From Clostridiales bacterium (GTDB lineage Bacteria; Bacillota; Clostridia; Christensenellales; Pumilibacteraceae): DNA of 64,000 bases. The notes beneath the pieces are model-generated. The model was not told where the DNA came from. It saw only the letters and a program-made list of their open reading frames with translations, and made no database searches. A program made the translations under genes and the position numbers. Of this stretch, positions 16,605 through 62,170 are shown piece by piece. Position 1 is the first letter of the stretch, and each line of letters opens with the position of its first letter. Location: the NCBI GenBank assembly GCA_022508505.1, contig JAFLVC010000011.1:1-64000 (forward strand). Reading direction: 5' to 3'.

Positions 16605-16852
16605 AAGTATAGTGTGCTATACTTTTTATTGTAAGTGCATTTAGCAAATGAAATTGCTTGCTGCGCAAGCAGTGAAATTTTTAGCCTTGCGACTAAAAAT
16701 GAAATTTTGCTTCGCAAAATGAAATAAAATTCGCCTTGTAATGTGCGAAGCACATTTCATATTCCGCAAGGAATATTTCATAGCGAAGCTATTTCACTCG
16801 CCGTAAGGCGAATTTCATTGGGTGTTTGTGATATTCCCTATCACAAACACCC
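16605..16852. repeat. array of short hairpins separated by TGAAAT / ATTTCA spacers, ending in a 14-bp perfect hairpin
   Basis: Four TGAAAT spacers (16649, 16673, 16700, 16720) and four ATTTCA spacers (16754, 16775, 16791, 16812) interleaved with perfect small hairpins; GGGTGTTTGTGATA-ttccc-TATCACAAACACCC at 16820-16852. Confidence 0.9.
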
Positions 16853-32869: not shown

Positions 32870-33535
32870 CTATTCAAAATCATCGTCGTCAGGCGCCTCG
32901 AATGCGCCCTCGTCGCCGAGAATGCGCACCGCCGCGCCTATGCTGTCCCAAGTAAACCCGCGCCCAGCCAAGTACCGCTTCAGCTTGGGCACTTCGGCAA
33001 ATCTATGTGTTTTCAAGTACCGCCGCGCCGTCTCCACCGCGCCGTCGTCCTCGTCGTAACTGCTTCCGTCATACTCGTCCTCATAGTCGTCGGAAAGAAG
33101 CTCCGAGATTATTTCGGAGGATATGCCGCGCTTTCGGAGCTCAGCGGAAAGCCGTATCTTGCCGTACTTACGTGATTTCGACTTGATATAGCTGTTTGCG
33201 TATGCACGGTCGTCGATATATCTGTACTGCTCGAGCCGCTCTACCGCCTCGGCGACAACCGACGCGTCGTAGCCCTTGTCCTTTAGATACCGCTTGATCT
33301 CGAGCGCAGAGCGCGGCGACGACGACAGATACCCCGCCGCTCGCTCGAACGCCGAGTTGACCTCGCTCTTGTGCGACACCTCTTTGAGCTTTTCCACCGT
33401 TATTTCGTCGCCGATCTTAATTCGCGCGCCGACGGCTGTTACCGCGTCAAGCCCGATAGCGAACTCGCCGTCGATAAAAACGCTCACTCGCGACGGATTG
33501 CGCTTTTGCTTAGCTATGTCGGTGATTCTACCCAT
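32870..33535 (-). CDS. recX: regulatory protein RecX
   Basis: MGRITDIAKQKRNPSRVSVFIDGEFAIGLDAVTA...YLSSSPRSALEIKRYLKDKGYD. Confidence 0.88.
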   Translation of the reverse strand: MGRITDIAKQKRNPSRVSVFIDGEFAIGLDAVTAVGARIKIGDEITVEKLKEVSHKSEVNSAFERAAGYLSSSPRSALEIKRYLKDKGYDASVVAEAVERLEQYRYIDDRAYANSYIKSKSRKYGKIRLSAELRKRGISSEIISELLSDDYEDEYDGSSYDEDDGAVETARRYLKTHRFAEVPKLKRYLAGRGFTWDSIGAAVRILGDEGAFEAPDDDDFE

Positions 33536-33610
33536 ACGCGTATTATACACCGCGAATAAAAATAAATCAAGCCTCACATATTATTTTTAACTTTTGACAA
33601 GGAGAAGAAT

Positions 33611-33793
33611 ATGACAACAAAAAGCCTTCAAGAACTCAGCGAGCTTTGCCGCAGTGAAAAACTCGCCTACAAAAAGTGCTGCAACTACGTTTCGGAAACT
33701 GACAACGCCGACCTTCAATGCGCGCTCGGCAAGCTCGCAAACGGTCACCGTCAGCGTTACGAATCGCTCCGCACATATCTCGACAAGAACTAA
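33611..33793 (+). CDS. small hypothetical protein upstream of CotF-like gene
   Basis: 60 aa; RBS AAGGAGAAGAAT before ATG; 12 bp before the next CDS. Confidence 0.65.
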   Translation: MTTKSLQELSELCRSEKLAYKKCCNYVSETDNADLQCALGKLANGHRQRYESLRTYLDKN

Positions 33794-33804
33794 GGAGAAA
33801 AACC

Positions 33805-34542
33805 ATGAACAACGATTTTGAAATGAACTACGACAACGATCCCGCCGACTGCAACGGATATTCGAGCGGCGCGGACTACTCCACCGAGAGCTCGGACGAA
33901 TTCTCGCCCGCTCCCTCCGAATTCGGCACGCCCGACAAAACGTCGGAAGAGAACGACGCTAAAGACTTTTTCAACAGCCCGGGAATAATCGCGCCCCTCG
34001 ACTACGCGGACGGGCGCACCGACCTCGGCAGTCTCTACGACACAGAAAGCGCAGAGGACAACGGTTGCGGCTGCGGTTGCGGCGACGACGACTGTCCCGG
34101 TTACGGCGGAGACGGAGATAAAGGCGGTTGCGGCTGCGGCTATAGCGATAACGACAGCGAGACGTCGGAGGAGTTCGAGCCCTCGCCCGAGGACGAAACG
34201 GCGGCGACGAGCGACGAGCTTTATAACAATTCCACCGTGTCGGCGCGCGAAAAATACTCGCTCGACGACTACGAGATAATTTCGGACGTGCTCGGCAGCG
34301 AGAAGCAGCTCGTAAAGCTGTACTCCACCGCGCTTTGCGAGAGCGCCGAGGAATCGCTTCGCGGCGTCATTCGCGAAAACCTCATAGAGTGCGCAAAGGA
34401 CCAATACTCCACCTTCGAGTATATGGAAAAGCGCGGGCTGTATCAAACCGAGCAAGCGCCCGAAGACCAGATTGCGCAGGCAAAACAGCAGTTCGGACCG
34501 CTCACATCCAACTGCAACTGCGGCTGCGGTTGCGACAACTGA
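33805..34542 (+). CDS. CotF-like spore-coat protein with Cys/Gly-rich low-complexity segments
   Basis: 245 aa; C-terminal LDDYEIISDVLGSEKQLVKLYSTALCESAEESLRGVIRENLIECAKDQYSTFEYMEKRGLYQTEQAPEDQIAQAKQQF resembles CotF; CGCGCGDDDC, GGCGCGY, CNCGCGCDN. Confidence 0.65.
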   Translation: MNNDFEMNYDNDPADCNGYSSGADYSTESSDEFSPAPSEFGTPDKTSEENDAKDFFNSPGIIAPLDYADGRTDLGSLYDTESAEDNGCGCGCGDDDCPGYGGDGDKGGCGCGYSDNDSETSEEFEPSPEDETAATSDELYNNSTVSAREKYSLDDYEIISDVLGSEKQLVKLYSTALCESAEESLRGVIRENLIECAKDQYSTFEYMEKRGLYQTEQAPEDQIAQAKQQFGPLTSNCNCGCGCDN

Positions 34543-35143: not shown

Positions 35144-38100
35144 TCAGCCGTTGTCTTTCTTGCTCCAGCGCGCGTAAAGCGGCAGGTCGTCAGAAAGCTC
35201 AAGTTCCGAGCCGTCCGTTATCTTTTGGCCCGCCTCTTTGTCGGTGTACCAGCCGTCAAACTCGTACTCGTCGCTGCTGTCGGTGGGCTCAGGGAGGTCG
35301 CACAAATCGCCGTCGGCGTAGAACTGCGACTCAAACGATTGACTCTTATTACCGTTAAAGTCTTCGGGATAGTTGAGGTCGAACGACACTTCGAAAAGCT
35401 GTGCCCAATGCGCATAGAGCACGATGTCTTTGGTGCCGACGGTTATCGTTTCCGCGCACTTTTTGTCCGTGCCCTGATTCTGCTCATTTTCAAACCAACC
35501 CTCGAACCTGTAACCTTCGCGAGTGGGCGTCACCATGGTGTGCATGACGAACGTATCGCCTGTCTTCATCTGCACGGACAGCGTATGTACGCTTCCGATA
35601 GTGCCCTCGCCCGCATTGAGCGTAACCGTGTAGAGAACTTCCTTCCATACGGCGGTGAGAGTCGTGTCATTGTCTGTTATCGTTACCTTTGTATCCTTGG
35701 TTACGACGTTGCCGGACGCGTCATGCCATTCGACGAAGGTGTAGCCCGGTCTCGTCGCGGTTACGTCGGCGAGAATTGCGTACGTTCCGTCGTAGGTTAC
35801 TCGTACCGTGGCGGTGTTCGTAGGCGTACCATCGGCGTTTTTGACCGTTACGGTCGCGCCGGTGCCGCCGCTAAGCGTTACGGTGTACTCATTTGCCGTC
35901 CAGTAGGCGTACAGCGTGTGGTCATACGCTACGTTAAAGGCCTTATTGGCTTCGATGAGCGCGCCCTCATTGTTCGTAATCTGCTTGCCGCCGCCGTTGG
36001 GCTGGGTGTACCAACCGCCGAATGCATAGCCTGCGCGAGTGGGCTTGGAATTACCCATAGCGGGATACTCGGTATCGTACGCGACCTTATACTGCTTCGT
36101 CTGGCTATCGCCGAGCGTACCGCCTGCGGGATCGAGCGTTACGGTATACGTCTCGGCAATCCACCTTGCAAAGAGGGTATGGGCTCTCGCGGTCTCTACA
36201 TGGTCGGTTGCATTTACTTTTTTGCCTGTAGCACCGTCGGAATCGGTTGCGGTTGTGTACCAGCCGTCAAACTTATATCCGACTCTCGACAGCACGGGCA
36301 GTGCGCCGTACTCGGCGGCGTATGTAACGGTCTTGGTCTTTACGAAATCGTCAAGCTCAACGCCGTTGCCGTCGAACGTCACTACGTATGTTTCTGCTGT
36401 CCACTGCGCGGTAACCGTTTGAGGATCGGCGGGAACGGTCCTATTGGATGTTATGCGCTGAGGGCCGGAGTACCAACCCGCAAAGGTGTAGCCTTCGCGC
36501 GTGGGTTCAACATCCGGCAGGACGTAAGCTTGACCGAATGTTTCGGTTACGGTCTCCTTGTCTGCCTGACCGACCTTGCCGCCGCCGTAATTGAACTCGA
36601 CTTGGTATGTCTTGGCTTGCCACTTGGCGTAGACGGTGGAAGAATATCCGGGGAGACTTCCCGTCGCTTGTTTCTCGCCTTCCTTATCGAAATACCAGCC
36701 TTTGAACTCATAGCCGGTGCGCTCGGGAGTATGGCTGCTGTCGCTCGGGATATTGGCATACGTTCCGTTATACGCTACGTTTGCCGTCGTGCTGTCCAAA
36801 GTTGCGTCGGGAGCGTTTTTGTCGAGATAGACAGGAACCGTGCTGCTGCTGAAGCTAACGGCGTAAATCTTGCTCATCGTGGTAGACGCGCTGTTAGACG
36901 CCGAGCCGTTGCGCGACTGATATTGCACCGTGAACTGTGCAGTCGAAGTTGCGGCCATGCCGAACGTGATTACGACGCGCTCCGCCGCCTTCGCCCTGAT
37001 AGTTTGCGAAAGATTTACCGTCGCCGACGAATAGCCGGAAACGACATATTCCGTCGTGCCGTACGGACTTACGGAGCCCACCGTTTCATATGCCTCTACT
37101 TTGACATAGGCAACGACTGACGAAATATAGCCGGTGGAAGGACGGAGCGTCAAGCTGTAAGGATACTTGTAGTCGTTGTCTTTGCTCGCGATCCACTCGG
37201 AAACAAAGCCGTGCACAGTCTGGTTTTGCGCATTGCCGGAGGAGGGCTTGTATGACACCCACTTTTTGGACGTTGCGACCGTAACCCTCTCGTTGGTGAC
37301 GGTGAACGCGTCGCCCTCCATGCGCGGCGAAATCGAGATTTTAATCGAATACTCGCCGTCTATATCAAAGGTGCTTGTGAGGTCGCGCACGCTGTAGACA
37401 ATCTTGACGGTCTGCTCTTGAGAATCTGTTACATCCGCGGCGGTGATTATGATATTTGCGCCGCTGTTGGCAGAGCTCAGATATTCGCCGAGGTCTTGCA
37501 CTTCGACGTCCAATATGTCGAGGCCGTGCTTTTCGGTCATGGACACGCTGAGCGATCCGCCCGCGATAAGGTCGACGGGATGGGTGTCGTCGTTGCTGCT
37601 CGCCGCGGGATTGAGCACGACGGCTACGTCGGGATGAATCGCTCCGACAGCGACAGAGCCTTTACCGAAATACTCGACTGAGCTACCGGTAAACGAGATG
37701 ACAAACTCGAGCTCGACAACCGCGGGATCGTTTTCACCGGGCTTCTTAACATTTATCGTCTTTTCGATTGCAAAGTGAGCGTCAGCCGTGCCGTTGGAGC
37801 GGTCGATAATCCACACGAACGAAGTGTACGTGCGCGCCTTGACCTCGATTATGCGCGGCAACTCCGCGAGCTCTTGCGGGAGCTTGGATGCAAGCGCAGT
37901 TGTGATATAATCCTTAAGATAGACGTCGGGATACTTATTCTGATCATTGCTCCACTCTACCGTTTTCACCTCGGCCATAAAGCCGTTGAGCGCTATTGTA
38001 ACATCATCGCCGCCGAACGACATTCCGGCATACACGCCGGTCGTCATTGTAACGGTGGGTTTAAGTATAACGTTGACTCCCGAAACCGCAAGGCTCTCAT

Positions 38101-41100
38101 GGAGCGTTACCGCACGTCCCGCTACGGAAACGACGTCCTGTATTGTCTTGTCGATGCCCGGTATCTGCGTAGTGCCGTTGGCGAGCTCGTACGATACCGT
38201 GTACTTGTCGGTGCTCTTGATGCGGTCCGTGTACTCTGCGGTGTCGTTTGTATTGAGCGAGACCGCCGTATACACGTCGTAGCTGCCGTGTTGTGCCGAG
38301 ATCGACACGCCGGACACGGCGTTGGCTTTGGGCACTACGAAGATGTAGTACGTGCGAACGATTTTCTTATCGACGTTTATGCCGCTGCCGGAAAGGATTG
38401 TCGCCGTGACGGTCAGAGTGAACGTGCCGCCCGCGCGAGTTGTTTTGCCTTCTGGATCTTTTACGGTCAGCGAGTTGTCGGTAGTGCCGTAATCGCCTGC
38501 GGTATAGCCGTTCGGCGCTTTGAACTCGTACTTGTATTCGACACTGTTAAAGTGATACGTGTGGCCTTCGCCCACCGTTACGGAAGAAAGCTCAAATACG
38601 CCCGCGAAGCTGAGTGTTTCGCCGATAGCGATTGTAGTGGAATTATCCTTCCACTTCGCCGTGTTTTTGATAACCATGTCGGGAAGCGGAATGCCGACTA
38701 TGATAATCGACTTTTCGAGCGTGTAGCTACCGATAAGGGCGCCGTCCGTGATTTTTACGGTAATGAGAACGACTATTCTCTGATTTTCGGCGTTGTTCTT
38801 TTTGGGAGTAAGAACGCCCGTGCTTTCCACAATATCCGCATAATCGCCGCCGTCGACTATTTCGTAAGACACCGTGTATGCACCGACGAATTTCTTATCT
38901 TGTTCGACGGTCGCGCCGAATTGCGCCGTCTCGTCGGGCATTATTTCGGTGACATCCGTGCCGCCCTTCTTGACGGTGGCCGTGATTTCCGGTTCGGTCG
39001 CCGTAAGCTCGAGAGTGAGCGTATCCATGTAATACGTTCTGCCGCCGACGACAATCGAGCTGCTGACAGTGAACGTAGTAACATGCTCGGCGGTGAACAC
39101 GACGTAGAACTTGTTGCCGCCCGCGCTTTGAACCGTCACTTTGCCGCCGTCGGGCGTTACGTTGCCGCCGTACAGAACCTTGATGTCCGAAGCGGACACG
39201 TCCACACCGACTGTCGACGCGTCGATATCGTACCTTATCTTGCGCGCTTTGACCGCAGTGCCGCCGCCCACAGGCGTGCCGAAGTCAATCTCGAGCTTGC
39301 CCTTGTTGCCGGAAAGCTCAAGCGCCTCGCCGTAGCTACCTCCGCCGTCGGTGGAAACGCTAAGCGAACTCGTCGCCATGCCGCCGTAATTAAAGGTTAT
39401 ATTCCTTGTCGCGGTGGTGGTCTTGCCGTACGCTTCGGCTTCGACTGCAATCGTGGCCGTGCCGAACTTGTTGTCGATTGTTATTTCCGCGCTGTCCGAG
39501 CTGAACGCGCCGATAGAAACTATTCCCTTTCTGTCGCTTGCGGAATACGTCCAATCGCCGCTCTCGTACCAGCCGAGCGCATTGACGTCTGTCGTGACGA
39601 TACGGACGTAGTACTTGGTGTCCGCGTCGTAAGTGACCTCGACGGGCTCGTTGCTGTCGCTGCCTGCAAGCTTTTTCTGATCGTTGCTCTTTTCGCTGTA
39701 TATCTCGAACTTGAGCTCGTCATACTGCCAATCGAGTCCGAGCGTGATTGTCTGTGTGACCGCGAAGCTTGCGCCGCCCTCAACCGTCGCACTCGTGCCG
39801 TCGTTGGAGTACGTAATCTTAACGGTGAACGAATAGGTCTTATCTGCGGCGTACTCGCTGCCGTCAAAGATGTGGCTGCGGTTTACCTTGACGTTGACCT
39901 TTTCGGAGCCCTTGGTGTCCGTCTTTACAACGGTGAACATGTCGCTGTCGTAGCTTGCGATATCAAACGTGTACGAAAGACCGGTGTAGTTTCTTACGGT
40001 TGCAGATATGTCTGACTCCTCGTTCTTTACGACGTTAATCTCGTCCTTGCTCGTAGAAAGCTGAGGCTTTTCGAGCGCGACGATATTGACCCTGTACGTG
40101 CTCTTTACGGTGTTTATTCCGTCCGCCGCCGACACGTCGAGCATAACCTCGCCCGCGCCATTCGGCACGAGAATCTTGCCGTTGGCGGTGAGGCTTGCGC
40201 TCCTCGGAGTCAAGGTGATTATTGTCGTTTCGGGAGCGGCGACGCCTGCAAAAGGCGTGCCGACCGTAATGAAGTTCGTGAGGTCGAGCTGGGTGTACGC
40301 GCCGCTTTGTGCATAGTAAAGCGTGATCGTGTCGTCGCTCATAATGCCGCCGAGGACGCCCGATACGGTTACGCTCGATATGGCAATTGTGTATTCGATA
40401 TCGACGTCGATGTAGCGGAGTTCTTCACGGCCTGCGTCGTAGAACTCGGCGCGGTAGTACAACGTGCCGCTGTACGACGACGGCTTGACAAACGTAATCT
40501 TGCCGTATTGATCGATTTTGGCGACCGCGTCTTCGCCGGTCATTTCGGACGTGCGGGCACTGCTATTATACAGCTTATACGTTACGGTTTTGCCCGACGG
40601 CTCGTTCGTTCCGCGGTTGACGACGCGCGCGGGAAGAGTGAATATATCGCCCGCCGTCTTTACGGTGACGCTAGCGTCGCCCGACCTGCCGTTGACCTCG
40701 GCGTTGGTGACGTCGAGATAGTCGCCGCCCTTTTCGAGCTCGATCTCTTCCGAGGATGTCGTAACGGTTATGGGTGCGTAATAGGTCTTGCCGCCGTAGG
40801 TCAAGCCGAGATAATATTTGCCGCTCAGTACAGTGTTCTTGACGGTGATTGAGAACACGCCGTTCTCGCCGCTCACTCTTACGTCGCCTACGTACGTCGA
40901 GTACGTGCCGTCGCCGAGCGTGTAAATCGCCGCCGTGACTTCGCTAATCAGCGCAGACGAGGGCTGCAAGCTTACATTGCCGCCGTTGTATTTGATTTGT
41001 ACCGACTGAGGCGCTGCGTCGCCGTCCTTGCCGTTCGTCACGAACGAGTACGAGCCGCTGTCTATTGCGTATATGTCGCTCTCGACGGTGATTTTGAACG

Positions 41101-44100
41101 TGACGGTAATCTGACGCGCAGGCATTCTCATGCTGTCGGTGAACGTGACGGTAAACGTCTCGCCCGCTATATTTCGTATTTCGTTCTTGTTGATTGCGAA
41201 CATGAGGTACATGTCGCGCGAGTCCGTGCTGTACGTGAATGTGATGCCGTTCATCGTCGCACCGCTTACCGAAAGTTTGGACAATTTGTATTCAATCGAG
41301 CCGAAGCCGTCGGCGGACGCATAACTGTTGACAGCAAACGGGACTTTGACCGACTTTTCGTCGCTCGCGCTCATGAGAAGCGGGAACTTGATGTCGGTCG
41401 TCTCGCCGTCCTCGCTGTTTTGCGTATTTTGGTCGACGGTGTACGATATTGACGCCACGCCCGTGCCGACCATTGCCTTGGCGTTAACGGTCTGCGCCGA
41501 ATAGCTGAGCTGAATGCGGTCGCCGTCGCCCTCGCCGTCGGCGTACTTCGCGCTCTCGGGAACGAGCTTAACCGAGCATTCCTGTATGTAAACGACGGTC
41601 TCGTCGTCTACGTTGGAGGTTAAAATGCCGTCGGGACCGTTGGTGGTGGAAACGTCATTGCGGAATTCGTATATGCCGCCGCCCTTATATTCGCCGACTG
41701 TGCCGTTGACGAGTGCGAGCTGCAGGTACTCGGGAAGAACGAGCGTCGCCGAAGCGAAGTACACGTACTTGCCGGTGTTTTCTTCCGTTATCCGGACGTA
41801 CTCTATTTTGACGTAGAGCGTCTTGACGTACGGCGACGACGTATCGTCGGTGAACCTACCGAAGTCGAGCTCGGTGAGCGCCCTGTCACAGCTCGCGTCT
41901 TGATAGAGCCCGATGCTCTCAATGGGACGTGCGCTGTTCTTGACGGTTACTTTGACCAACGTAGGCGTACCAGACGCGTCCTCTTTGTAAATCGATATGC
42001 CGGAATAAGTATCGCCGTTTTCGTTGATAACGTCGGGCCCGACAAACGTAATGGACGTGTATGCGTCGCTCTTGGTATTGCCCTTGACGTCTTTGAACTT
42101 GTCGCCGTCCAGCTGCGACAAGCCGATGGTCTGAGGTGCGCGGATATACACGCCCTCTGTCTTGGAAAGCGTCAACGACTTGTCGGAAACTATGATCTTC
42201 TCGCCGCCGTTCATTATTATTCCGGAGACGAAAACCGCGCCGCTCTCGCCCTGATTGAGCTCGTAAATGTAACCTTGAGCGTCCTTAGCGACTTCTTTTA
42301 CATAATCATTGTCCTCATAGAGCGCAACACTGTCGACGTGGCGAATAATGTCGTACGTGCGGTAGCACTCGTAAAGCTCTTGAACGACGTGCGACCTCGG
42401 GCAAAGCTTATACGTTATGCGTATCTTGTCGAGCTTGATTCCGGCTTCGTACGCAATGAGGAAAGGATCGCCTACGGCATATATTTCATTGCCGTTGAAC
42501 TTAAACACCTGCTTGTACTCGCCGCTCGACATGACGCGGAAGGTCCTGTTATTGCCGCTGCCTATCTCGTCGAAGTCGACGTATTCCCCGCCGTAATAAT
42601 ACGCGAGAGTAAATTCCCATTCCGAGGAGGAAAGAGCATTGGTCGTTTCCGGGTATTTGCCCGTGCCCGATACGGTATCGAGCTCGAACAACAAGTCGGT
42701 GCCCGTGTAGTATCTCGGGCTGTTCGGATCGTCGCCGCAACTTATTGACACGATCTCGTTTACGACGTAGACGTTGACCGTAAACGTGCCGATTGTCGCG
42801 CCGCTGCCTAACGCGGTCGCCGTGAGAAGAAGCGTCGCGTGCAAGTCCGTATACTTGCCGTTAAACGTAAGCTCCGATGCAGGTCTTCCGCTGTTGCCGT
42901 TAAAAGACCCGTTCTGCGAACTGTTGCTCTGTATTCTGCCGGTTATGTTGTAAGCGCCCTTGTTGGGCTTTATCAAGTCGTAGAAGTCTATTAAGTCTGT
43001 GAGCGAGCCTTCTTTTTGGACCTGAATGTAAATATCGCATTCGGTATTCGATTTTTTGACAAAATCGCCCGCCCTGCCTTCGGCGGTTACTACCGATCTT
43101 CCGGTTTCTTCATCGACTAAGTTCGCAGCCGTCGCGACCTCCGAAACGTAGAAGCCTATAGTGCGCTCAACATCGGGATCGACCGTCGTAATCGGCAGAC
43201 CTATCTTTGTAAAGTTAAGGTAATAATATGAACCGTTCTCGACCACGCCCTCGTCGCCGATTGTCAGCTTGAACTCTGCCGTACCGGTAAAGTTTTTGGT
43301 TGCCGGAGAGCCCGCGACCGCTTTGACCGTGAAGTTTTCGCTCGTAAATTTGTTTTCCTTGGTGAGCGAAACGTCGCCTTCCTTTTTTAACATCGCCTTC
43401 AAGAAGCCCGTCTCGCTGAGCGTCATGAGGTACGTGTTGCTTATGTATCTGTCCGCCAGCGTGGAAACGTCGGCAGTCTTGGGCGCGGTGAACGTGTAGG
43501 TTACGGTGAGCGTCGCCTCAACGCCTTGAGAAACTGTTATCGCCTTGTTGCCGCCCGCAGCGGACGCCGCCAAAGCCTTGTCGTCATACGTCTGACCTCC
43601 CAAGGATAGGCTCATTACCAAATCGGATTCGCCGCTCGGCGCCAAGACGCTCAAAAGAACGCGACAAGCCGACGCGACTGCGCCCGACGATTCGTCGGTA
43701 ATGGTCAGCGTGCACTGCGATCCCGTGGAAAGTCCGCGGCAGGTCAAGCCGTAATTTTTGATATTATTGGGGCGCGTCTCGATGACGTTGCAGATTGCCG
43801 AGTCCGACGAAGCGATTTTAATCTTATTCTTCCACGATTCGTCTTTTTTGAACTCGTACTTTGCGGCGTTGCCCTCGCCCGTCTTGGTGCACTGAAGCGT
43901 GAACGGCAAGAGCACAACGTGCTTTAAGACGTCATTGTAAGGCGCAACCTCGTTGTACGGCAAGGTGAGCGTGGTGGAAACCTTTATGCCGTCGGCGTCC
44001 TTAGGCACCCTGCCGAGCGACGCGTCCGTCCAGTTCGCCTCGAAAAACTTTTCGGTTACCGGCTTGTCGGTAAAGTATATAGCCTCGATGTAGCCGAGCT

Positions 44101-45061
44101 CGCCCGACGATTGCGCGACTACGTGAAGCGTCGCACGTACTTCGGGGGCCCCCTGACGGTTGACGTTTGCGGTGACGATTATATTGGTCTCGCCCGCAGA
44201 CTTGATCGTAAATGCAAACGTCGAGGCCGTGTAGTTGTAGCTGATGCTGTCGATGACGTTGGTGTTTGAGGACGTCACCCTTACTGCGTTCGATTGGGTT
44301 TCGGAATTTACGGAAATTTCCGCATACTCGTTTTCCTTTACGCCCGCTTTGCCCTTTTGCGTGAACGAGACTACATACTGCGAGTTGTTGCTCGAAGAAA
44401 TGTAAACGGGCAGGTTCAGCTTGTCGCCGTTGATATCGACGTCACGGTTGCCCGTCGTCGCGCCACGGTATCTTGTAAAGAATATGTGCTCGGTCGCCTG
44501 CTCTACCACTGTAAAAGTGATTTTATCGCTTTTTGCCGTGTTCTCCTGTGAAACAGCCGAAACGGTTATCTTCTCGCCGGCATGAGCGCCATTGGGCGTG
44601 AACGTGAAGAAATACGTGTAGCGCTTGACGTCCGAATCGTCAGATCCCGAAACGGCGTCGGCGTTTGCGACCGACTTGCTGTCGGCAATGCCGCTCTTGG
44701 TATCCGCAAACACTGCCGTCGAATCGACCTTTTTGCCGTTGCACTCGATGAGCCATACTATTTCCGCGCTCATCTTGCCTTTGAGATTGATGGTCGCATA
44801 CACAGTGTAAGGCTTACCTACCGAAGCGGTAAGAATGGGATCGCCGTTTTCGTCGATCGACGAAAATAACGTAGTCGATTCGGTAATCCTGACTCCGTCT
44901 ATACTTCCTTCGCTTACTACCGCGCTCGGCTTTAACAAATACAAAACCAACATAGCCGCCGCGGCTGCAAGAAACAGCGCCGACAACACAATCATGATGA
45001 TGACTATTTTCTTGGTTTTTTTAACCGGGGCAAGTTCGATGATCTCGTCCGAAATGGGCAT
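35144..45061 (-). CDS. giant surface-type protein: N-terminal membrane anchor, Ig-like repeats, seven C-terminal InlB-type repeats
   Basis: ~3,305 aa; KKTKKIVIIMIVLSALFLAAAAAMLVLYLL near N-terminus; repeated 'TR.GY.F.GWYT...YA.W.A..Y.VTF..' modules at the C-terminus ending LYARWSKKDNG. Confidence 0.9.
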   Translation of the reverse strand: MPISDEIIELAPVKKTKKIVIIMIVLSALFLAAAAAMLVLYLLKPSAVVSEGSIDGVRITESTTLFSSIDENGDPILTASVGKPYTVYATINLKGKMSAEIVWLIECNGKKVDSTAVFADTKSGIADSKSVANADAVSGSDDSDVKRYTYFFTFTPNGAHAGEKITVSAVSQENTAKSDKITFTVVEQATEHIFFTRYRGATTGNRDVDINGDKLNLPVYISSSNNSQYVVSFTQKGKAGVKENEYAEISVNSETQSNAVRVTSSNTNVIDSISYNYTASTFAFTIKSAGETNIIVTANVNRQGAPEVRATLHVVAQSSGELGYIEAIYFTDKPVTEKFFEANWTDASLGRVPKDADGIKVSTTLTLPYNEVAPYNDVLKHVVLLPFTLQCTKTGEGNAAKYEFKKDESWKNKIKIASSDSAICNVIETRPNNIKNYGLTCRGLSTGSQCTLTITDESSGAVASACRVLLSVLAPSGESDLVMSLSLGGQTYDDKALAASAAGGNKAITVSQGVEATLTVTYTFTAPKTADVSTLADRYISNTYLMTLSETGFLKAMLKKEGDVSLTKENKFTSENFTVKAVAGSPATKNFTGTAEFKLTIGDEGVVENGSYYYLNFTKIGLPITTVDPDVERTIGFYVSEVATAANLVDEETGRSVVTAEGRAGDFVKKSNTECDIYIQVQKEGSLTDLIDFYDLIKPNKGAYNITGRIQSNSSQNGSFNGNSGRPASELTFNGKYTDLHATLLLTATALGSGATIGTFTVNVYVVNEIVSISCGDDPNSPRYYTGTDLLFELDTVSGTGKYPETTNALSSSEWEFTLAYYYGGEYVDFDEIGSGNNRTFRVMSSGEYKQVFKFNGNEIYAVGDPFLIAYEAGIKLDKIRITYKLCPRSHVVQELYECYRTYDIIRHVDSVALYEDNDYVKEVAKDAQGYIYELNQGESGAVFVSGIIMNGGEKIIVSDKSLTLSKTEGVYIRAPQTIGLSQLDGDKFKDVKGNTKSDAYTSITFVGPDVINENGDTYSGISIYKEDASGTPTLVKVTVKNSARPIESIGLYQDASCDRALTELDFGRFTDDTSSPYVKTLYVKIEYVRITEENTGKYVYFASATLVLPEYLQLALVNGTVGEYKGGGIYEFRNDVSTTNGPDGILTSNVDDETVVYIQECSVKLVPESAKYADGEGDGDRIQLSYSAQTVNAKAMVGTGVASISYTVDQNTQNSEDGETTDIKFPLLMSASDEKSVKVPFAVNSYASADGFGSIEYKLSKLSVSGATMNGITFTYSTDSRDMYLMFAINKNEIRNIAGETFTVTFTDSMRMPARQITVTFKITVESDIYAIDSGSYSFVTNGKDGDAAPQSVQIKYNGGNVSLQPSSALISEVTAAIYTLGDGTYSTYVGDVRVSGENGVFSITVKNTVLSGKYYLGLTYGGKTYYAPITVTTSSEEIELEKGGDYLDVTNAEVNGRSGDASVTVKTAGDIFTLPARVVNRGTNEPSGKTVTYKLYNSSARTSEMTGEDAVAKIDQYGKITFVKPSSYSGTLYYRAEFYDAGREELRYIDVDIEYTIAISSVTVSGVLGGIMSDDTITLYYAQSGAYTQLDLTNFITVGTPFAGVAAPETTIITLTPRSASLTANGKILVPNGAGEVMLDVSAADGINTVKSTYRVNIVALEKPQLSTSKDEINVVKNEESDISATVRNYTGLSYTFDIASYDSDMFTVVKTDTKGSEKVNVKVNRSHIFDGSEYAADKTYSFTVKITYSNDGTSATVEGGASFAVTQTITLGLDWQYDELKFEIYSEKSNDQKKLAGSDSNEPVEVTYDADTKYYVRIVTTDVNALGWYESGDWTYSASDRKGIVSIGAFSSDSAEITIDNKFGTATIAVEAEAYGKTTTATRNITFNYGGMATSSLSVSTDGGGSYGEALELSGNKGKLEIDFGTPVGGGTAVKARKIRYDIDASTVGVDVSASDIKVLYGGNVTPDGGKVTVQSAGGNKFYVVFTAEHVTTFTVSSSIVVGGRTYYMDTLTLELTATEPEITATVKKGGTDVTEIMPDETAQFGATVEQDKKFVGAYTVSYEIVDGGDYADIVESTGVLTPKKNNAENQRIVVLITVKITDGALIGSYTLEKSIIIVGIPLPDMVIKNTAKWKDNSTTIAIGETLSFAGVFELSSVTVGEGHTYHFNSVEYKYEFKAPNGYTAGDYGTTDNSLTVKDPEGKTTRAGGTFTLTVTATILSGSGINVDKKIVRTYYIFVVPKANAVSGVSISAQHGSYDVYTAVSLNTNDTAEYTDRIKSTDKYTVSYELANGTTQIPGIDKTIQDVVSVAGRAVTLHESLAVSGVNVILKPTVTMTTGVYAGMSFGGDDVTIALNGFMAEVKTVEWSNDQNKYPDVYLKDYITTALASKLPQELAELPRIIEVKARTYTSFVWIIDRSNGTADAHFAIEKTINVKKPGENDPAVVELEFVISFTGSSVEYFGKGSVAVGAIHPDVAVVLNPAASSNDDTHPVDLIAGGSLSVSMTEKHGLDILDVEVQDLGEYLSSANSGANIIITAADVTDSQEQTVKIVYSVRDLTSTFDIDGEYSIKISISPRMEGDAFTVTNERVTVATSKKWVSYKPSSGNAQNQTVHGFVSEWIASKDNDYKYPYSLTLRPSTGYISSVVAYVKVEAYETVGSVSPYGTTEYVVSGYSSATVNLSQTIRAKAAERVVITFGMAATSTAQFTVQYQSRNGSASNSASTTMSKIYAVSFSSSTVPVYLDKNAPDATLDSTTANVAYNGTYANIPSDSSHTPERTGYEFKGWYFDKEGEKQATGSLPGYSSTVYAKWQAKTYQVEFNYGGGKVGQADKETVTETFGQAYVLPDVEPTREGYTFAGWYSGPQRITSNRTVPADPQTVTAQWTAETYVVTFDGNGVELDDFVKTKTVTYAAEYGALPVLSRVGYKFDGWYTTATDSDGATGKKVNATDHVETARAHTLFARWIAETYTVTLDPAGGTLGDSQTKQYKVAYDTEYPAMGNSKPTRAGYAFGGWYTQPNGGGKQITNNEGALIEANKAFNVAYDHTLYAYWTANEYTVTLSGGTGATVTVKNADGTPTNTATVRVTYDGTYAILADVTATRPGYTFVEWHDASGNVVTKDTKVTITDNDTTLTAVWKEVLYTVTLNAGEGTIGSVHTLSVQMKTGDTFVMHTMVTPTREGYRFEGWFENEQNQGTDKKCAETITVGTKDIVLYAHWAQLFEVSFDLNYPEDFNGNKSQSFESQFYADGDLCDLPEPTDSSDEYEFDGWYTDKEAGQKITDGSELELSDDLPLYARWSKKDNG
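35150..36850 (-). repeat. seven InlB/Listeria-Bacteroides-type repeat modules (coding)
   Basis: GYEFKGWYF, GYTFAGWYS, GYKFDGWYT, GYAFGGWYT, GYTFVEWHD, GYRFEGWFE, EYEFDGWYT. Confidence 0.85.
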
Positions 45062-45483
45062 AATACACCTCATGTTACAGTATTACCGATATATGATACA
45101 CTAAAACACTGCAAATGTCAATATCATATACCAGAAAATTGCCTTTATTTTAGCTGAATTTAAATTTATTGCGTTTACTAAATTATTCAATTTGCGGCGA
45201 CAATAATCGAGAAATTTCAATTATATTGGAAATTGATTTCGATTATCACCTGTTTTAGGTCGCAAGTGGTCAATACTCAAAACATAATAAAATTTATTTT
45301 AGTCATGTTTAAATATTATTTTTAGCAGTCTACATATAACACTGCTAACACTTGACGCACGAGAGCACTAACTTTTATATCCGTCAAATGTGCGCGGAAT
45401 GTGGCACTTTCACGCTTATTCGACAGCAAAAACACGGAACAATCGTCGCAAAACCGTTCATTTTTAAAAATGGCGTAAAACCG

Positions 45484-56011: not shown

Positions 56012-56293
56012 ATGAAGAAAAAACTAACCGCAATGTTGACGGCGCTGACGCTGTTGATACTCCCCATCGGGCTCGCCGGCTGCTCGGACGACGGAAAGAC
56101 GACCGTTAGGCTCAGCGAGGTCACTCACTCAATTTTCTACGCGCCGCTGTACATAGCCATAAACAAGGGCTATTTCGATGACGAGAACATCAAGATCGAG
56201 CTACAAAACGGCGGCGGCGCCGACAAGGTAATGACTTCAGTCATTTCGGGCTCTGCCGACATCGGACTCATGGGCCCAGAAGCCACAATTTAA
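56012..56293 (+). pseudogene. 5' remnant of an NMT1/THI5/SsuA-like ABC transporter substrate-binding lipoprotein gene, truncated at the prophage junction
   Basis: RBS GGAGG; lipoprotein signal LIGLAGCS-type (LPIGLAGCSDDG); SEVTHSIFYAPLYIAINKGYFDDENIKIELQNGGGADKVMTSVISGSADIGLMGPEATI then stop; family members are normally ~300+ aa. Confidence 0.85.
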
Positions 56294-56320
56294 GCGGATA
56301 CTTCAATAGGGACTAATTTT

Positions 56321-56349
56321 AAAAAGCGACTGAATTCAGCCGCTTTTTG
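56321..56349. terminator. terminator at prophage edge (AAAAAGCG-a-CTGAATTCAG-c-CGCTTTTT)
   Basis: Near-perfect 28-bp palindrome with T tract. Confidence 0.75.
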
Positions 56350-56362
56350 AATTTCATATAAA

Positions 56363-56524
56363 TTACATTTCTTGCTCATCTTCATCATAATAACTTGGAG
56401 TTGCGAAAGTATCTGGTTCACCATCATCATCACCACCGCCACTCCTGTACGTAGTGCCGCTTAGTGACGAACCATCGTTATAACCATAAAGGTTATCGCT
56501 TTTAAGGATTTCATCATCGCTCAT
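56363..56524 (-). CDS. 53-aa acidic peptide (prophage moron candidate; absent from ORF track)
   Basis: MSDDEILKSDNLYGYNDGSSLSGTTYRSGGGDDDGEPDTFATPSYYDEDEQEM; SD AGGAGGC; consensus promoter at 56557-56585. Confidence 0.75.
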   Translation of the reverse strand: MSDDEILKSDNLYGYNDGSSLSGTTYRSGGGDDDGEPDTFATPSYYDEDEQEM

Positions 56525-56556
56525 AATACTGCCTCCTAATTGTTTATTGTTTTAAC

Positions 56557-56585
56557 ATTATATACAATTATCTATAATTTGTCAA
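56557..56585 (-). promoter_or_regulatory. consensus promoter TTGACA-17-TATAAT
   Basis: Minus strand TTGACAAATTATAGATAATTGTATATAAT. Confidence 0.88.
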
Positions 56586-56610
56586 TACACTTTATTACTT
56601 TTTTTCAAAT

Positions 56611-56643
56611 TAAAATCGGACGACAATATCCGCCGTCCGATTT
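56611..56643. terminator. terminator AAAATCGGACG...CGTCCGATTTT
   Basis: Inverted repeat between the two small cassettes. Confidence 0.7.
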
Positions 56644-56669
56644 TAATTTATGAAACAAAAATATTATCA

Positions 56670-56807
56670 CTAAACTCCAATTTCTTTTTCGGGTTCAGGC
56701 TCGGGCGCAGGTTCAGGACTAGCAGAAGACGATGAACTCGGAGTGCCATCATCTCCTTTTGCGCCGCTACCAATCCTTATCATCTTTTGAATAAGCGTTT
56801 CTCCCAT
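56670..56807 (-). CDS. 45-47-aa Ser/Pro/Glu-rich peptide (prophage moron candidate; absent from ORF track)
   Basis: MGETLIQKMIRIGSGAKGDDGTPSSSSSASPEPAPEPEPEKEIGV (alternative ATG at 56813); SD AGAGGTG; promoter at 56838-56866. Confidence 0.7.
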   Translation of the reverse strand: MGETLIQKMIRIGSGAKGDDGTPSSSSSASPEPAPEPEPEKEIGV

Positions 56808-56837
56808 AATCATCACCTCTTTACAATTTGTTATTTT

Positions 56838-56866
56838 ATTTTACACAATTTTCAGAGATTTGTCAA
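56838..56866 (-). promoter_or_regulatory. promoter TTGACA-17-TAAAAT
   Basis: Minus strand TTGACAAATCTCTGAAAATTGTGTAAAAT. Confidence 0.8.
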
Positions 56867-56873
56867 TACATTT

Positions 56874-57728
56874 TCATTTTTTTGCTACACTTAACCTCGG
56901 CACGCTCACCCACTCGTCGAACTCATGCAAGAAAGCGATTCGCCGCAAAATGACCTTGTTTTTGGTCTCTGTAATCCGCGCATAACCTTCGTGCTCGGAA
57001 CTGTAAGCCGTCAGCACTATTGTTAGGAGCCGCAAAAAGAACATCACCCATGCGCTAATATCCGTAATGTCTTTTGCCGGCTCCCATGCAAGCAGTGCCA
57101 AAATGAGAGCAATAAATACGGCACGGAGCGCACGGAGCGATATGCGAGCCGTCTTGTCCGCACGCTCGTTATAGTTCACGCCGCAGTCATCGTCCGTTTT
57201 GCTGTCGCTCAACAAATCAATCGCCCGAACAGGCACTACGCGTACTCGCCCATTCTGAACTTTTGCAACCGCTCGTCGCTGTCGACGAGTATAACCGTCT
57301 TCTTTCAGCTTCTTGGTAGACATAGTTTTAAGCGTATCGTCATACAGCTTGCGGTCTATACCTACATTTGCGAGAATGACCGTAATCTTATCATCTCGCA
57401 TTTGCTCGGTCTTTGCTTTGCAGAATGCTCGTAGATCGCCGAGCTGTCCGCCATCAGTAACAGCCTTAATCTGCTTACCGTAAATGGCGGCATTATCCTT
57501 ATAAGCGGAGTTCTCTTCGCGCTTGGCACGGTCAGTCCCCGAATTTATCCACAATATGGCAGTCGACACCAAAAGAAAAATGTTGATGATGAGCTGCGGC
57601 AAAAACACAGCCATGTCGAACTCGTCGTTAAGGCTGAAAACGACGAATTGCAACAGAAGCGTAACAATGATTGTAAGGGCGCTTATTGTTATAGGTATAA
57701 GACCTCTGATGCTTATCTTCTCTTTCAT
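56874..57728 (-). CDS. prophage membrane protein, unknown function
   Basis: 284 aa; two N-terminal and two C-terminal TMs; overlaps next gene by 4 bp. Confidence 0.75.
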   Translation of the reverse strand: MKEKISIRGLIPITISALTIIVTLLLQFVVFSLNDEFDMAVFLPQLIINIFLLVSTAILWINSGTDRAKREENSAYKDNAAIYGKQIKAVTDGGQLGDLRAFCKAKTEQMRDDKITVILANVGIDRKLYDDTLKTMSTKKLKEDGYTRRQRRAVAKVQNGRVRVVPVRAIDLLSDSKTDDDCGVNYNERADKTARISLRALRAVFIALILALLAWEPAKDITDISAWVMFFLRLLTIVLTAYSSEHEGYARITETKNKVILRRIAFLHEFDEWVSVPRLSVAKK

Positions 57729-58222
57729 GATTCTCCCCCTCCGTGCTTGCCGTGCACTTCTCGCGCCGCGAGCACGCCGAACACTGTGCCGACGACATAC
57801 GCCGCGAGCGTAAAACCGATTGCGCCGGACATCTGCAGAATAGCGTTTTCCATAGCTTTACAGGCTATCAGGAGCGCGGCGAGCAACAGTACGGGAATAA
57901 TGGCGTTGATAACCGCCTCGACGGTGCGCTTGCACTTCAAGTCGGACTCCAAGTTTTTGACCTTTTCCGCGTCGCACTCGACGGACAAGTCCGCTTCCTG
58001 CTGCGCGATCTGCGCCGACAGCTTAGTCATTCGCGGCTTCAACAGCGTGTTCTTGGCGATTATCACGACAACAATCACAAGCAACAGCGCGGCAAGCGGC
58101 AGCTTGTACGCAAGTCCGCCGCCTGTATCGCCATACTGTATGAAAATGAACACGAGCGGCGCCACAGCGCAAAACAGCGCCTGCAACACCGTGAATATAA
58201 TCAGCTTTTTCGTTATCTTCAT
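57725..58222 (-). CDS. prophage membrane protein, unknown function
   Basis: 165 aa; two N-terminal TMs, coiled-coil segment, two C-terminal TMs. Confidence 0.7.
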   Translation of the reverse strand: MKITKKLIIFTVLQALFCAVAPLVFIFIQYGDTGGGLAYKLPLAALLLVIVVVIIAKNTLLKPRMTKLSAQIAQQEADLSVECDAEKVKNLESDLKCKRTVEAVINAIIPVLLLAALLIACKAMENAILQMSGAIGFTLAAYVVGTVFGVLAAREVHGKHGGGES

Positions 58223-58226
58223 GGCA

Positions 58227-58721
58227 TCACCCGAAGTTGATTGTGTCCGCCCTATCTTCTGCGGTCGGCTTATCCAAACTTATAGGATTGAGCTTGACCG
58301 TGGCGATAACCTCTTTTTCGGGCGGCTTATACTCGCTGTCGAGTTCCTTGACTGCGGCTATAAGCGCGGCGCGTTCCTCGTCGGTCAACATTCTGAGGTG
58401 CGTAAGCGCCTCGCCTATAAGTGCGAGAAGATGCTTGTAAGAGTTTGTCTCATCGGCGACGATTTTTACTTTTTCGGACAACGCATCGCTTATCTCTTTC
58501 AGTCGTTTTTCGACTATCGCCGTGATGTCGATATCAAGCGTCTTTCCGGCGAGCTTGTCCGCGACCTTGCTTGCAATGGCGTTTATGTCGTAGACCGACG
58601 ATGCCTTTGCTATGAGTTGCCCGAGAAGCACACGCGCGAGCACATATATAATCGTGCCGCCGCCGAGTGCGCCGATGATTGAGAGTATGTACGGCTGTAC
58701 AGTTTGCCAAATTGCGTTCAT
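58227..58721 (-). CDS. phage holin-like protein (LLH-type, tentative)
   Basis: 164 aa; single N-terminal TM YILSIIGALGGGTIIYVLARVLLG followed by a helical domain; position after tail genes. Confidence 0.6.
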   Translation of the reverse strand: MNAIWQTVQPYILSIIGALGGGTIIYVLARVLLGQLIAKASSVYDINAIASKVADKLAGKTLDIDITAIVEKRLKEISDALSEKVKIVADETNSYKHLLALIGEALTHLRMLTDEERAALIAAVKELDSEYKPPEKEVIATVKLNPISLDKPTAEDRADTINFG

Positions 58722-59760: not shown

Positions 59761-62103
59761 TTAATATCCGCAACAATACATATCTACCAGCTCACTTCCA
59801 TCAGTACCTGCCTTCGACGCCGTTGCCCAAGTTACTACAAAACTAATAGAAGTTGTGCTTTTACTTGCAATAACGGGAGAAATCGCCCCCGATAAAGAAT
59901 CCCCTTTTATTGGTGTTAAAACAGCTGTATATGAAGTACTTGAAAATGGAATTTGAAATGACCAAGTTCCGGCATATATACCAAATCGACCGCACTCTTT
60001 CCAACCGCTTGCCCATATCCTATACCACTCCAATGTAGAAGAAGAAATGTAGTATTGCTTAACGTAATCATGCTGATATTTACGATTTGTACTACTTCCT
60101 GAAGTTATATTTGCTGCACTTTGTCCAGATAGAAATCTCCAGCACGTACCGTCGTATATAAACTCGACAAGAGAACCACCGCCTGTAGCACCATTGTTAT
60201 CTTCCCACGTTGGTAACGCATATATATTCGTATCTGCTGCAATTCTTACATCTTTAATCGTAATAGCGCCTGAATTATTTACATTCAGTGTTGGATTAGC
60301 TGCCGTATTTTTGTATGTAAACTTTACGATTACCCTCGCGCCTGCTACTAATGAAAATGTTTGATCGCCCGTTAATGTAACAATTTTTGCAGCTGTTGCG
60401 CCGGCTGTCGAGCAGGTTCCATAATGAGCTATGTTCTGTGTGCCGTTAAACGCAACGCCATCTATGTATCGAATTGAAGATAACTGCGTAGCGTTTGTCG
60501 CCTTTGTGGCGCTGTCAGCAGTTCCTGCATTCGTCGCTTTCCCCACCGTCATATTTGGATATGTTCCGGCAGGATCGAGAGTAGTGTAGGTATCTGTCCA
60601 CGGCACGTTTACGAACATAGTTCCGTCAGAAGATATCTCAACACCATAATAGCGCCCACTCGTATTGCTCGCCGCTTGGATTGTTGGCTTACTAATGACA
60701 TTCGTAGGTTTGACAAGCCCTGCTTTGGATGCCGTAGCTACGCTATAAGTCGTATCGGTGTCAGTCCAAGGAACGTTTACAACCAGGCTTCCGTTTTCAT
60801 CGCACTGCACGCGGTACGAGCGATTTCCGACTTGCGACGGTGCATTTGCCGGAACGCTTTGAACAACATCGCTTCCGAGCTTAACCGTACCGCTTTGGTC
60901 TGCCGTAGCGACTGGCGGAGGATTTCCGTCCCAATAATAACGCTCGTCTAATTCGTCGATATTTGCCGGATCTCCTCGGTCTCCCTTATCGCCCTTATCT
61001 CCCTTGTCACCTTTATCGCCCTTATCTCCCTTTATACCCTGCGCTCCCGATAGGTCGATAAGATATTCGTACTTGGTTGCGGTTTTTATAAACAGTTTAG
61101 CATTATCCTCATCCTCAACATTGCCTGTTTCTATTGCGACGAAGCCGTACAGACGCACACCGTCAGTAGCAAATCCGGCGTTCATAGCTTCAATAGACGG
61201 ATAAGTTTTATCAATACGGAAACCAACGCCCTCGGGGATATAAAAGTCAAAAATTGGTTCATTATCCGTTCCTGTGTTTACGACAAATGCATCACTTTCG
61301 GGCGGCAATGTAACAACCTTGCCAAGTTTTATAAACGCCGGTTTTCCTTGCGGTATCTTGAAATCAAGTACCGCGTCGATCGACGTGCCACTGTTAGTTA
61401 CCTCGGCTTTTTCGTTATACGACACAGTTTCAACCGTTCCAACCGTTATCTCGCCTGTGTCGCCTTTGTCACCTGTCTCGCCTTTCAGATTGATGAATTT
61501 AAGCCGTCCATCATCAGCAAGCGAAACATCCACATCGCCGACATTATTTGCGTCGGTGCAGTCGGGCTTTTGCAAAAGCGCCTCTATGCTGTCTTCTATA
61601 TGCTCGATCTTGATAGTCAAATCGTTTAGCCGCGCCAACTCGCCACCAACGGAATCTACTGTATCGCCGTCCGACACATCACTTTCGGCTATATCCGTAC
61701 GATATATGCCACTCGCGAGCCGCGAGGCAGCCTTATTCTCGGCGTTTATCTCCGAATATGTAAACACTATTTCAAGCGTGCCGGTTGTGTCTGTAAATGC
61801 TTTCGGGAACGGACACTCGAATACCATGTACTTGGCGTTGTCGATTTCCGCATCGGTCGTGTACAGCATATTGTAAATGTCGTTGTTGAACTGCTTACGG
61901 TTGCCGAAGCGGTCTATCGTTGTGCGGAATACCGTGCATAACGGACTTGTTATCCCCGGCGAGCGGTTTTGCGTGACAGGCACATAGCATTGCAATACCA
62001 CAAAGCCGTAGCCGCCTTTATACAGCTTCGTTTCGGATATCGGTACTACCGTGCCGCTTACGCCGAGCTTTACGGCTATGCGCCGTAGCTGTTTTTCTTT
62101 CAT
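59761..62103 (-). CDS. phage tail fibre / receptor-binding protein with collagen-like Gly-X-Y repeat
   Basis: MKEKQLRRIAVKLGVSG...; GAQGIKGDKGDKGDKGDKGDKGDRGDPA; duplicated VNVPWTDT modules; SD AAGGAGG. Confidence 0.85.
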   Translation of the reverse strand: MKEKQLRRIAVKLGVSGTVVPISETKLYKGGYGFVVLQCYVPVTQNRSPGITSPLCTVFRTTIDRFGNRKQFNNDIYNMLYTTDAEIDNAKYMVFECPFPKAFTDTTGTLEIVFTYSEINAENKAASRLASGIYRTDIAESDVSDGDTVDSVGGELARLNDLTIKIEHIEDSIEALLQKPDCTDANNVGDVDVSLADDGRLKFINLKGETGDKGDTGEITVGTVETVSYNEKAEVTNSGTSIDAVLDFKIPQGKPAFIKLGKVVTLPPESDAFVVNTGTDNEPIFDFYIPEGVGFRIDKTYPSIEAMNAGFATDGVRLYGFVAIETGNVEDEDNAKLFIKTATKYEYLIDLSGAQGIKGDKGDKGDKGDKGDKGDRGDPANIDELDERYYWDGNPPPVATADQSGTVKLGSDVVQSVPANAPSQVGNRSYRVQCDENGSLVVNVPWTDTDTTYSVATASKAGLVKPTNVISKPTIQAASNTSGRYYGVEISSDGTMFVNVPWTDTYTTLDPAGTYPNMTVGKATNAGTADSATKATNATQLSSIRYIDGVAFNGTQNIAHYGTCSTAGATAAKIVTLTGDQTFSLVAGARVIVKFTYKNTAANPTLNVNNSGAITIKDVRIAADTNIYALPTWEDNNGATGGGSLVEFIYDGTCWRFLSGQSAANITSGSSTNRKYQHDYVKQYYISSSTLEWYRIWASGWKECGRFGIYAGTWSFQIPFSSTSYTAVLTPIKGDSLSGAISPVIASKSTTSISFVVTWATASKAGTDGSELVDMYCCGY

Positions 62104-62120
62104 GAAAATGCCTCCTTGTA

Positions 62121-62149
62121 TTGACTTTATGATTTCGTTTGTATATAAT
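62121..62149 (+). promoter_or_regulatory. promoter TTGACT-17-TATAAT
   Basis: Plus strand TTGACTTTATGATTTCGTTTGTATATAAT. Confidence 0.82.
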
Positions 62150-62151
62150 AA

Positions 62152-62170
62152 AACCACCTTTGGAGGTGGT
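62152..62170. promoter_or_regulatory. hairpin ACCACCTttGGAGGTGGT overlapping the Shine-Dalgarno of the downstream gene; terminator-like on the minus strand
   Basis: CCACCT/AGGTGG self-complementarity; minus strand followed by TTTTATTATA. Confidence 0.6.

Follow-up and report, generated by a model that had tools for sequence, protein, structure and literature searches.

Two small acidic-peptide cassettes between the last late gene and attR of a Clostridiales prophage are probable lysogenic-conversion cargo

Results

The window, a 64-kb stretch of Clostridiales DNA, contains two small open reading frames (ORFs), A and B, that lie on the minus strand between positions 56290 and 56873 (Table 1). 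Both are open and correspond to the ORFs of 53 aa and about 45 aa that an earlier note on this DNA had proposed. As also claimed there, each has a strong Shine-Dalgarno (SD) sequence (TTAGGAGGCAGTATTATG for A and AAAGAGGTGATGATTATG for B) and a near-consensus promoter of its own, matching at 12 of 12 positions for A and 11 of 12 for B. ORF B could begin at a GTG, which gives 56670-56816, but the ATG is better spaced. The -35 box of B starts 7 bp past the stop codon of the upstream gene, which encodes a 284-aa membrane-type protein.

Hairpins had been described as flanking the two ORFs, and this was borne out in part. Terminator-like hairpins are present on both sides of A (56315-56354 and 56606-56654), the second of which is also downstream of B, but a search between the 284-aa gene and B revealed no hairpin. 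The peptides are as acidic as had been described: A has a pI of 4.05 and a net charge of -13.5, B a pI of 4.4 and a net charge of -4.5, and both are of low complexity. From the single sequence, AlphaFold predicted A to be disordered and to lack secondary structure (mean pLDDT 57); for B, modeled without relatives, one short N-terminal helix was predicted, with no secondary structure in the rest.

Table 1. Positions of the two cassettes and neighboring features in the window
Feature	Position	Strand	Basis
Host NMT1/THI5-like ABC transporter substrate-binding gene, 5' part	56012..56293	+	Pfam NMT1, E = 1e-8
attR core (ATTTA), prophage edge	56287..56291		attR/attL/attB comparison
Hairpin 3' of ORF A, bidirectional terminator-like, AAAAAGCG..CTGAATTCAG..CGCTTTTT	56315..56354		85% complementary, -15.9 kcal/mol
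ORF A, 53 aa, Asp/Gly-rich acidic peptide	56363-56524	-	open frame
SD of ORF A (AGGAGG)	56532..56537	-	sequence
Promoter-like site of A, TTGACA-17-TATAAT, 12/12	56557..56585	-	sequence
Terminator-like hairpin between B and A	56606..56654		hairpin search, folding
ORF B, 45 aa, Ser/Pro/Glu-rich peptide	56670-56807 (from ATG)	-	open frame
SD region of ORF B (AGAGGTGAT)	56812..56820	-	sequence
Promoter-like site of B, TTGACA-17-TAAAAT, 11/12	56838..56866	-	sequence
284-aa membrane-type protein, last conserved late gene	56874..57728	-	70% (G005), 72% (G011) identity
165-aa membrane-type protein, conserved late block	57725..58222	-	73% (G005), 64% (G011) identity
164-aa protein, conserved late block	58227..58721	-	76% (G005), 57% (G011) identity
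Tail-fibre-like protein, collagen-like repeats	59761..62157	-	PHROG tail fiber, 2.3e-13

The cassettes had been placed at a prophage edge next to an attachment site, and this location is directly shown by a truncated host gene, both att halves, a serine integrase, and a sister prophage at the same site. The host NMT1-like gene is interrupted by the prophage after codon 93 (window ~56290), and the opposite prophage end is on contig C25 of the same genome, which carries the remainder of the gene (L031 571-1302). Immediately before this 3' part, the contig encodes the C-terminal portion of a serine integrase (PHROG integrase, E = 1.5e-14). An uninterrupted 336-aa homologue is present in G018, and the uninterrupted attachment site can be seen in intact homologues of relatives. 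The ATTTA core was defined by comparing attR, attL (contig C25), the intact attB in relatives, and the junction in a related genome, G005. Elsewhere in the window, we noted two matches to the Gut-1 RNA (RF01706) at 16646-16820, on opposite strands and 18 bp apart, and an ORF of 3309 aa (35144-45073, minus strand), by far the longest of the window.

The late genes allowed us to find related prophages. When 85,462 species genomes were scanned, only G005 and G011 carried the 284-aa gene at comparable similarity; one further, distant match was found in the order (E = 1.7e-9). The sister prophage in G005 is complete (~34 kb, at about 22.1-55.8 kb of C42), is integrated at the same attB, and encodes a full serine recombinase. 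Beside this integrase, at the prophage end opposite the slot described below, is a gene of the AbiD/Abi_2 family (G005:C42:23522-24442, minus strand). The third prophage, in G011, has late genes in common with the window prophage, and a serine integrase of the G005 type was absent from the 64 kb examined; a 381-aa ORF (32925-34070) resembles, by eye, a tyrosine integrase.

DNA homology with both relatives extends to the 3' end of the 284-aa gene, stopping at window position 56891. Beyond this gene, the three prophages contain non-homologous, AT-rich sequence in what appears to be a variable cargo slot. The GC content of the slot is 0.35 in the window, 0.31 in G005, and 0.32 in G011, compared to 0.46-0.55 in the five late genes nearest to the window slot; a 411-aa ORF further into the window prophage has 0.39. 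In G005, the slot holds ORFs of 144, 78, and 226 aa behind a 12/12 promoter. In G011, it begins with a protein with a Spo0A_C domain on the other strand. Next come a 67-aa ORF with an 11/12 site before it, a 271-aa membrane-type protein preceded by a 12/12 site, and a Cro/C1-type regulator. Last, behind a further 12/12 site, are an EcoRI-type adenine methyltransferase and a GmrSD_N/HNH type II restriction enzyme (G011:C54:67635-69750; L024:2636-4748; PADLOC E 1e-128 and 1e-139). The Spo0A_C-domain protein, of 107 aa (L017:4291-4611; G011:C54:65291-65611, minus strand), matches the Spo0A C-terminal DNA-binding domain above the Pfam cut-off (E = 1.1e-7) and would be a phage-borne protein resembling a sporulation regulator. 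We considered whether an array of 11 strong promoters in this region (G011:C54, 65-85 kb) consisted of cassettes throughout and rejected this, as the genes from about 72 kb onward look, by eye, like ordinary chromosomal genes; the first three sites alone were assigned to the slot.

Beyond the 284-aa gene, the only sequence found in more than one of the three prophages is the hairpin between B and A, which aligns with the hairpin directly 3' of this gene in G005, with about 28 of 35 nt identical. Its score against this G005 late terminator was 33, and the next best among 377 terminator-like stretches was 23. The two terminators are homologous, and the simplest reading suggests that B entered upstream of the late terminator, next to the late gene, and A downstream of it.

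Searches for relatives of A identified no homologue in its own genome, 73 family members, 50,697 phage records, 72,556 plasmids, PDB sequences, or 85,462 species genomes, and no family in Pfam, PHROGs, or PADLOC-DB. Nothing convincing was found in 392 genomes of the class, where the one match (E = 0.04) lay inside a longer frame and was at chance level. For B, there was no match in the 73 family members, the phage records, or the PADLOC-DB defence profiles, and the Pfam and PHROGs searches gave weak low-complexity matches only (Pfam Trypan_PARP, E = 0.006, far below the cut-off). At the class level, nine B matches besides self (E 0.006-0.05) involved low-complexity stretches, mostly within long unrelated frames, and were read as chance, as was the best of them, a 76-aa frame of different composition that adjoins a transporter-like gene (G399).

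When the DNA of the whole slot was searched, the distant matches, besides the self match, were short (about 20-60 nt). Those inspected in G023 and G022 were promoter and leader sequence (ATTGACAAAT...TATAATA) upstream of unrelated genes, and one in G039 consisted of Pro-Glu repeats. The promoter of A matched two Streptococcus prophages and one Enterocloster phage. A link to the Streptococcus prophage protein paratox through these matches was discarded: the matched DNA precedes another hypothetical gene, and in those prophages paratox is encoded on the opposite strand.

To what extent could such an arrangement arise by chance? In the 583-bp stretch, about 0.1 sites of at least 11/12 are expected and two are observed, each correctly placed for its ORF; the whole window has only 12 such sites, counting both strands. 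Two minus-strand ATG ORFs of at least 44 codons, each with an SD, occurred in none of 2000 dinucleotide shuffles of the stretch, and in 2% when the SD was disregarded. GC1-GC3 was 0.25 for A and 0.27 for B (permutation p = 0.007 each and 0.0003 together), a signal to which Asp GAT codons contribute. Using log-odds trained on 781 codons from five cargo genes carried by two related prophages (with no penalty for stops), A scored +9.4 bits and B +9.6 bits in frame, while scores in the five remaining frames ranged from -10.7 to +2.2. Since tables trained on host or late-phage genes did not single out the true frame, we regard the coding signal of A and B as moderate. RNA folding energies over the ORF regions equaled those of shuffled sequence (z -0.44 to 0.03).

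Discussion

We propose that the A and B cassettes are probably lysogenic-conversion cargo, or "morons", located between the last late gene and attR of a temperate phage. The earlier note had interpreted them in this way, and the architecture and the swap of content among related prophages support it well. That note had also named, among the outcomes that could refute it, a failure to find the ORFs conserved in related prophages, and A and B are indeed not conserved. As slot content is replaced in every relative examined, such a lack is expected and does not count against morons, although conservation can then no longer be cited in favor of a function.

One alternative is that the ORFs are spurious or decaying, with promoters and hairpins that are real or left from earlier cargo and peptides that lack a function. 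The lack of homologues of A and B in the 73 family members, the absence of A from phages, plasmids, and species genomes and its chance-level match in the class genomes, and the low-complexity composition of both peptides are all consistent with this explanation, and one such ORF occurred by chance in 23% of shuffles. Since both ORFs come with a strong SD and a near-consensus promoter in a suitable position, and both display an in-frame coding signal and the codon-position GC pattern, we consider it unlikely.

The two other alternatives seem more remote. The cassettes might yield small regulatory or superinfection-control RNAs, with the ORFs incidental, on the model of STnc6030, an antisense RNA of the Salmonella prophage BTP1 (PMC7067206). 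Short units (about 200 nt) bounded by a strong promoter and a hairpin would suit such RNAs, but the strong SDs and coding signal, the absence of an Rfam match in the stretch, and folding energies over the ORF regions that are the same as in shuffles make them improbable. Slightly less credible still is that A and B are late lytic products (small accessory peptides for structure or lysis, for example) of the operon whose final gene encodes the 284-aa protein. They are on the strand of the late block and directly 3' of it, and no hairpin separates B from the 284-aa gene; however, both have their own vegetative-type promoters, both are absent from the two relatives with the late block in common, and A sits behind a homologue of the late terminator.

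If the cassettes are moron cargo, the vegetative promoters would drive A and B during lysogeny, when the late operon is silent. Since no hairpin precedes B, read-through from the late operon may also transcribe B, stopping at the ancestral late terminator, and A would be insulated by the hairpins on either side. Our suggestion as to what the peptides do is much weaker: being acidic and largely unstructured, they might bind and block a protein of the host or of a competing phage, which, by analogy, seems the likeliest action here for a highly acidic, unstructured small protein. The DNA-mimic or anti-defence role that the earlier note had offered as speculation gained no support from the family searches. 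DNA mimicry generally requires a folded charged surface, and it appears less likely for a peptide predicted to be unfolded. The restriction-modification pair in G011 raises the further idea, to which we give only a slim chance, that the slot is dedicated to conflict genes and that A and B, as new acidic and disordered peptides outside any known family, inhibit a function of the host or of a rival phage.

These observations place a slot of changing cargo in prophages of uncultured Clostridiales that form a little-known group. Conserved late genes mark its position and, in two members, so does a common attachment site. Annotation usually misses genes of the size of A and B. As different cargo is to be expected in every further prophage of the group, the slot can guide the search for new small phage proteins.

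Among known systems, SPO1 Gp44 is an acidic phage protein that acts as a DNA mimic (PMC8208478). A and B share with it that they are acidic, phage-encoded peptides, but there is no sequence match, and A is predicted to lack secondary structure. A second comparison is with paratox (Prx), a small protein that is encoded near the end of Streptococcus prophages, is reported to be intrinsically disordered in solution, and binds and blocks the host regulator ComR, folding on binding (PMC6224593, PMC11129628). As small peptides at a prophage end, A and B may be likened to paratox as a working analogue and not as a relative; no paratox-like match for A was present in Pfam, PHROGs, or PDB sequences. 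Moreover, prx has a CIN-box and is transcriptionally activated by XIP (PMC6224593, PMC11129628), whereas A and B carry vegetative-type promoters.

A third likeness is to morons, as described at Salmonella prophage loci (PMC7067206). A and B resemble autonomous units of promoter, ORF, and hairpin that are AT-rich, stand outside the phage's own gene programme, and are swapped between related prophages. As judged from sequence, each has its own promoter and a hairpin 3' of the ORF; among three related prophages with a common late block, the content at this position differs from one to the next; and the base composition is unlike that of the neighboring phage genes. As peptides, A and B are of an ordinary kind, and they differ from known morons in being orphan sequences.
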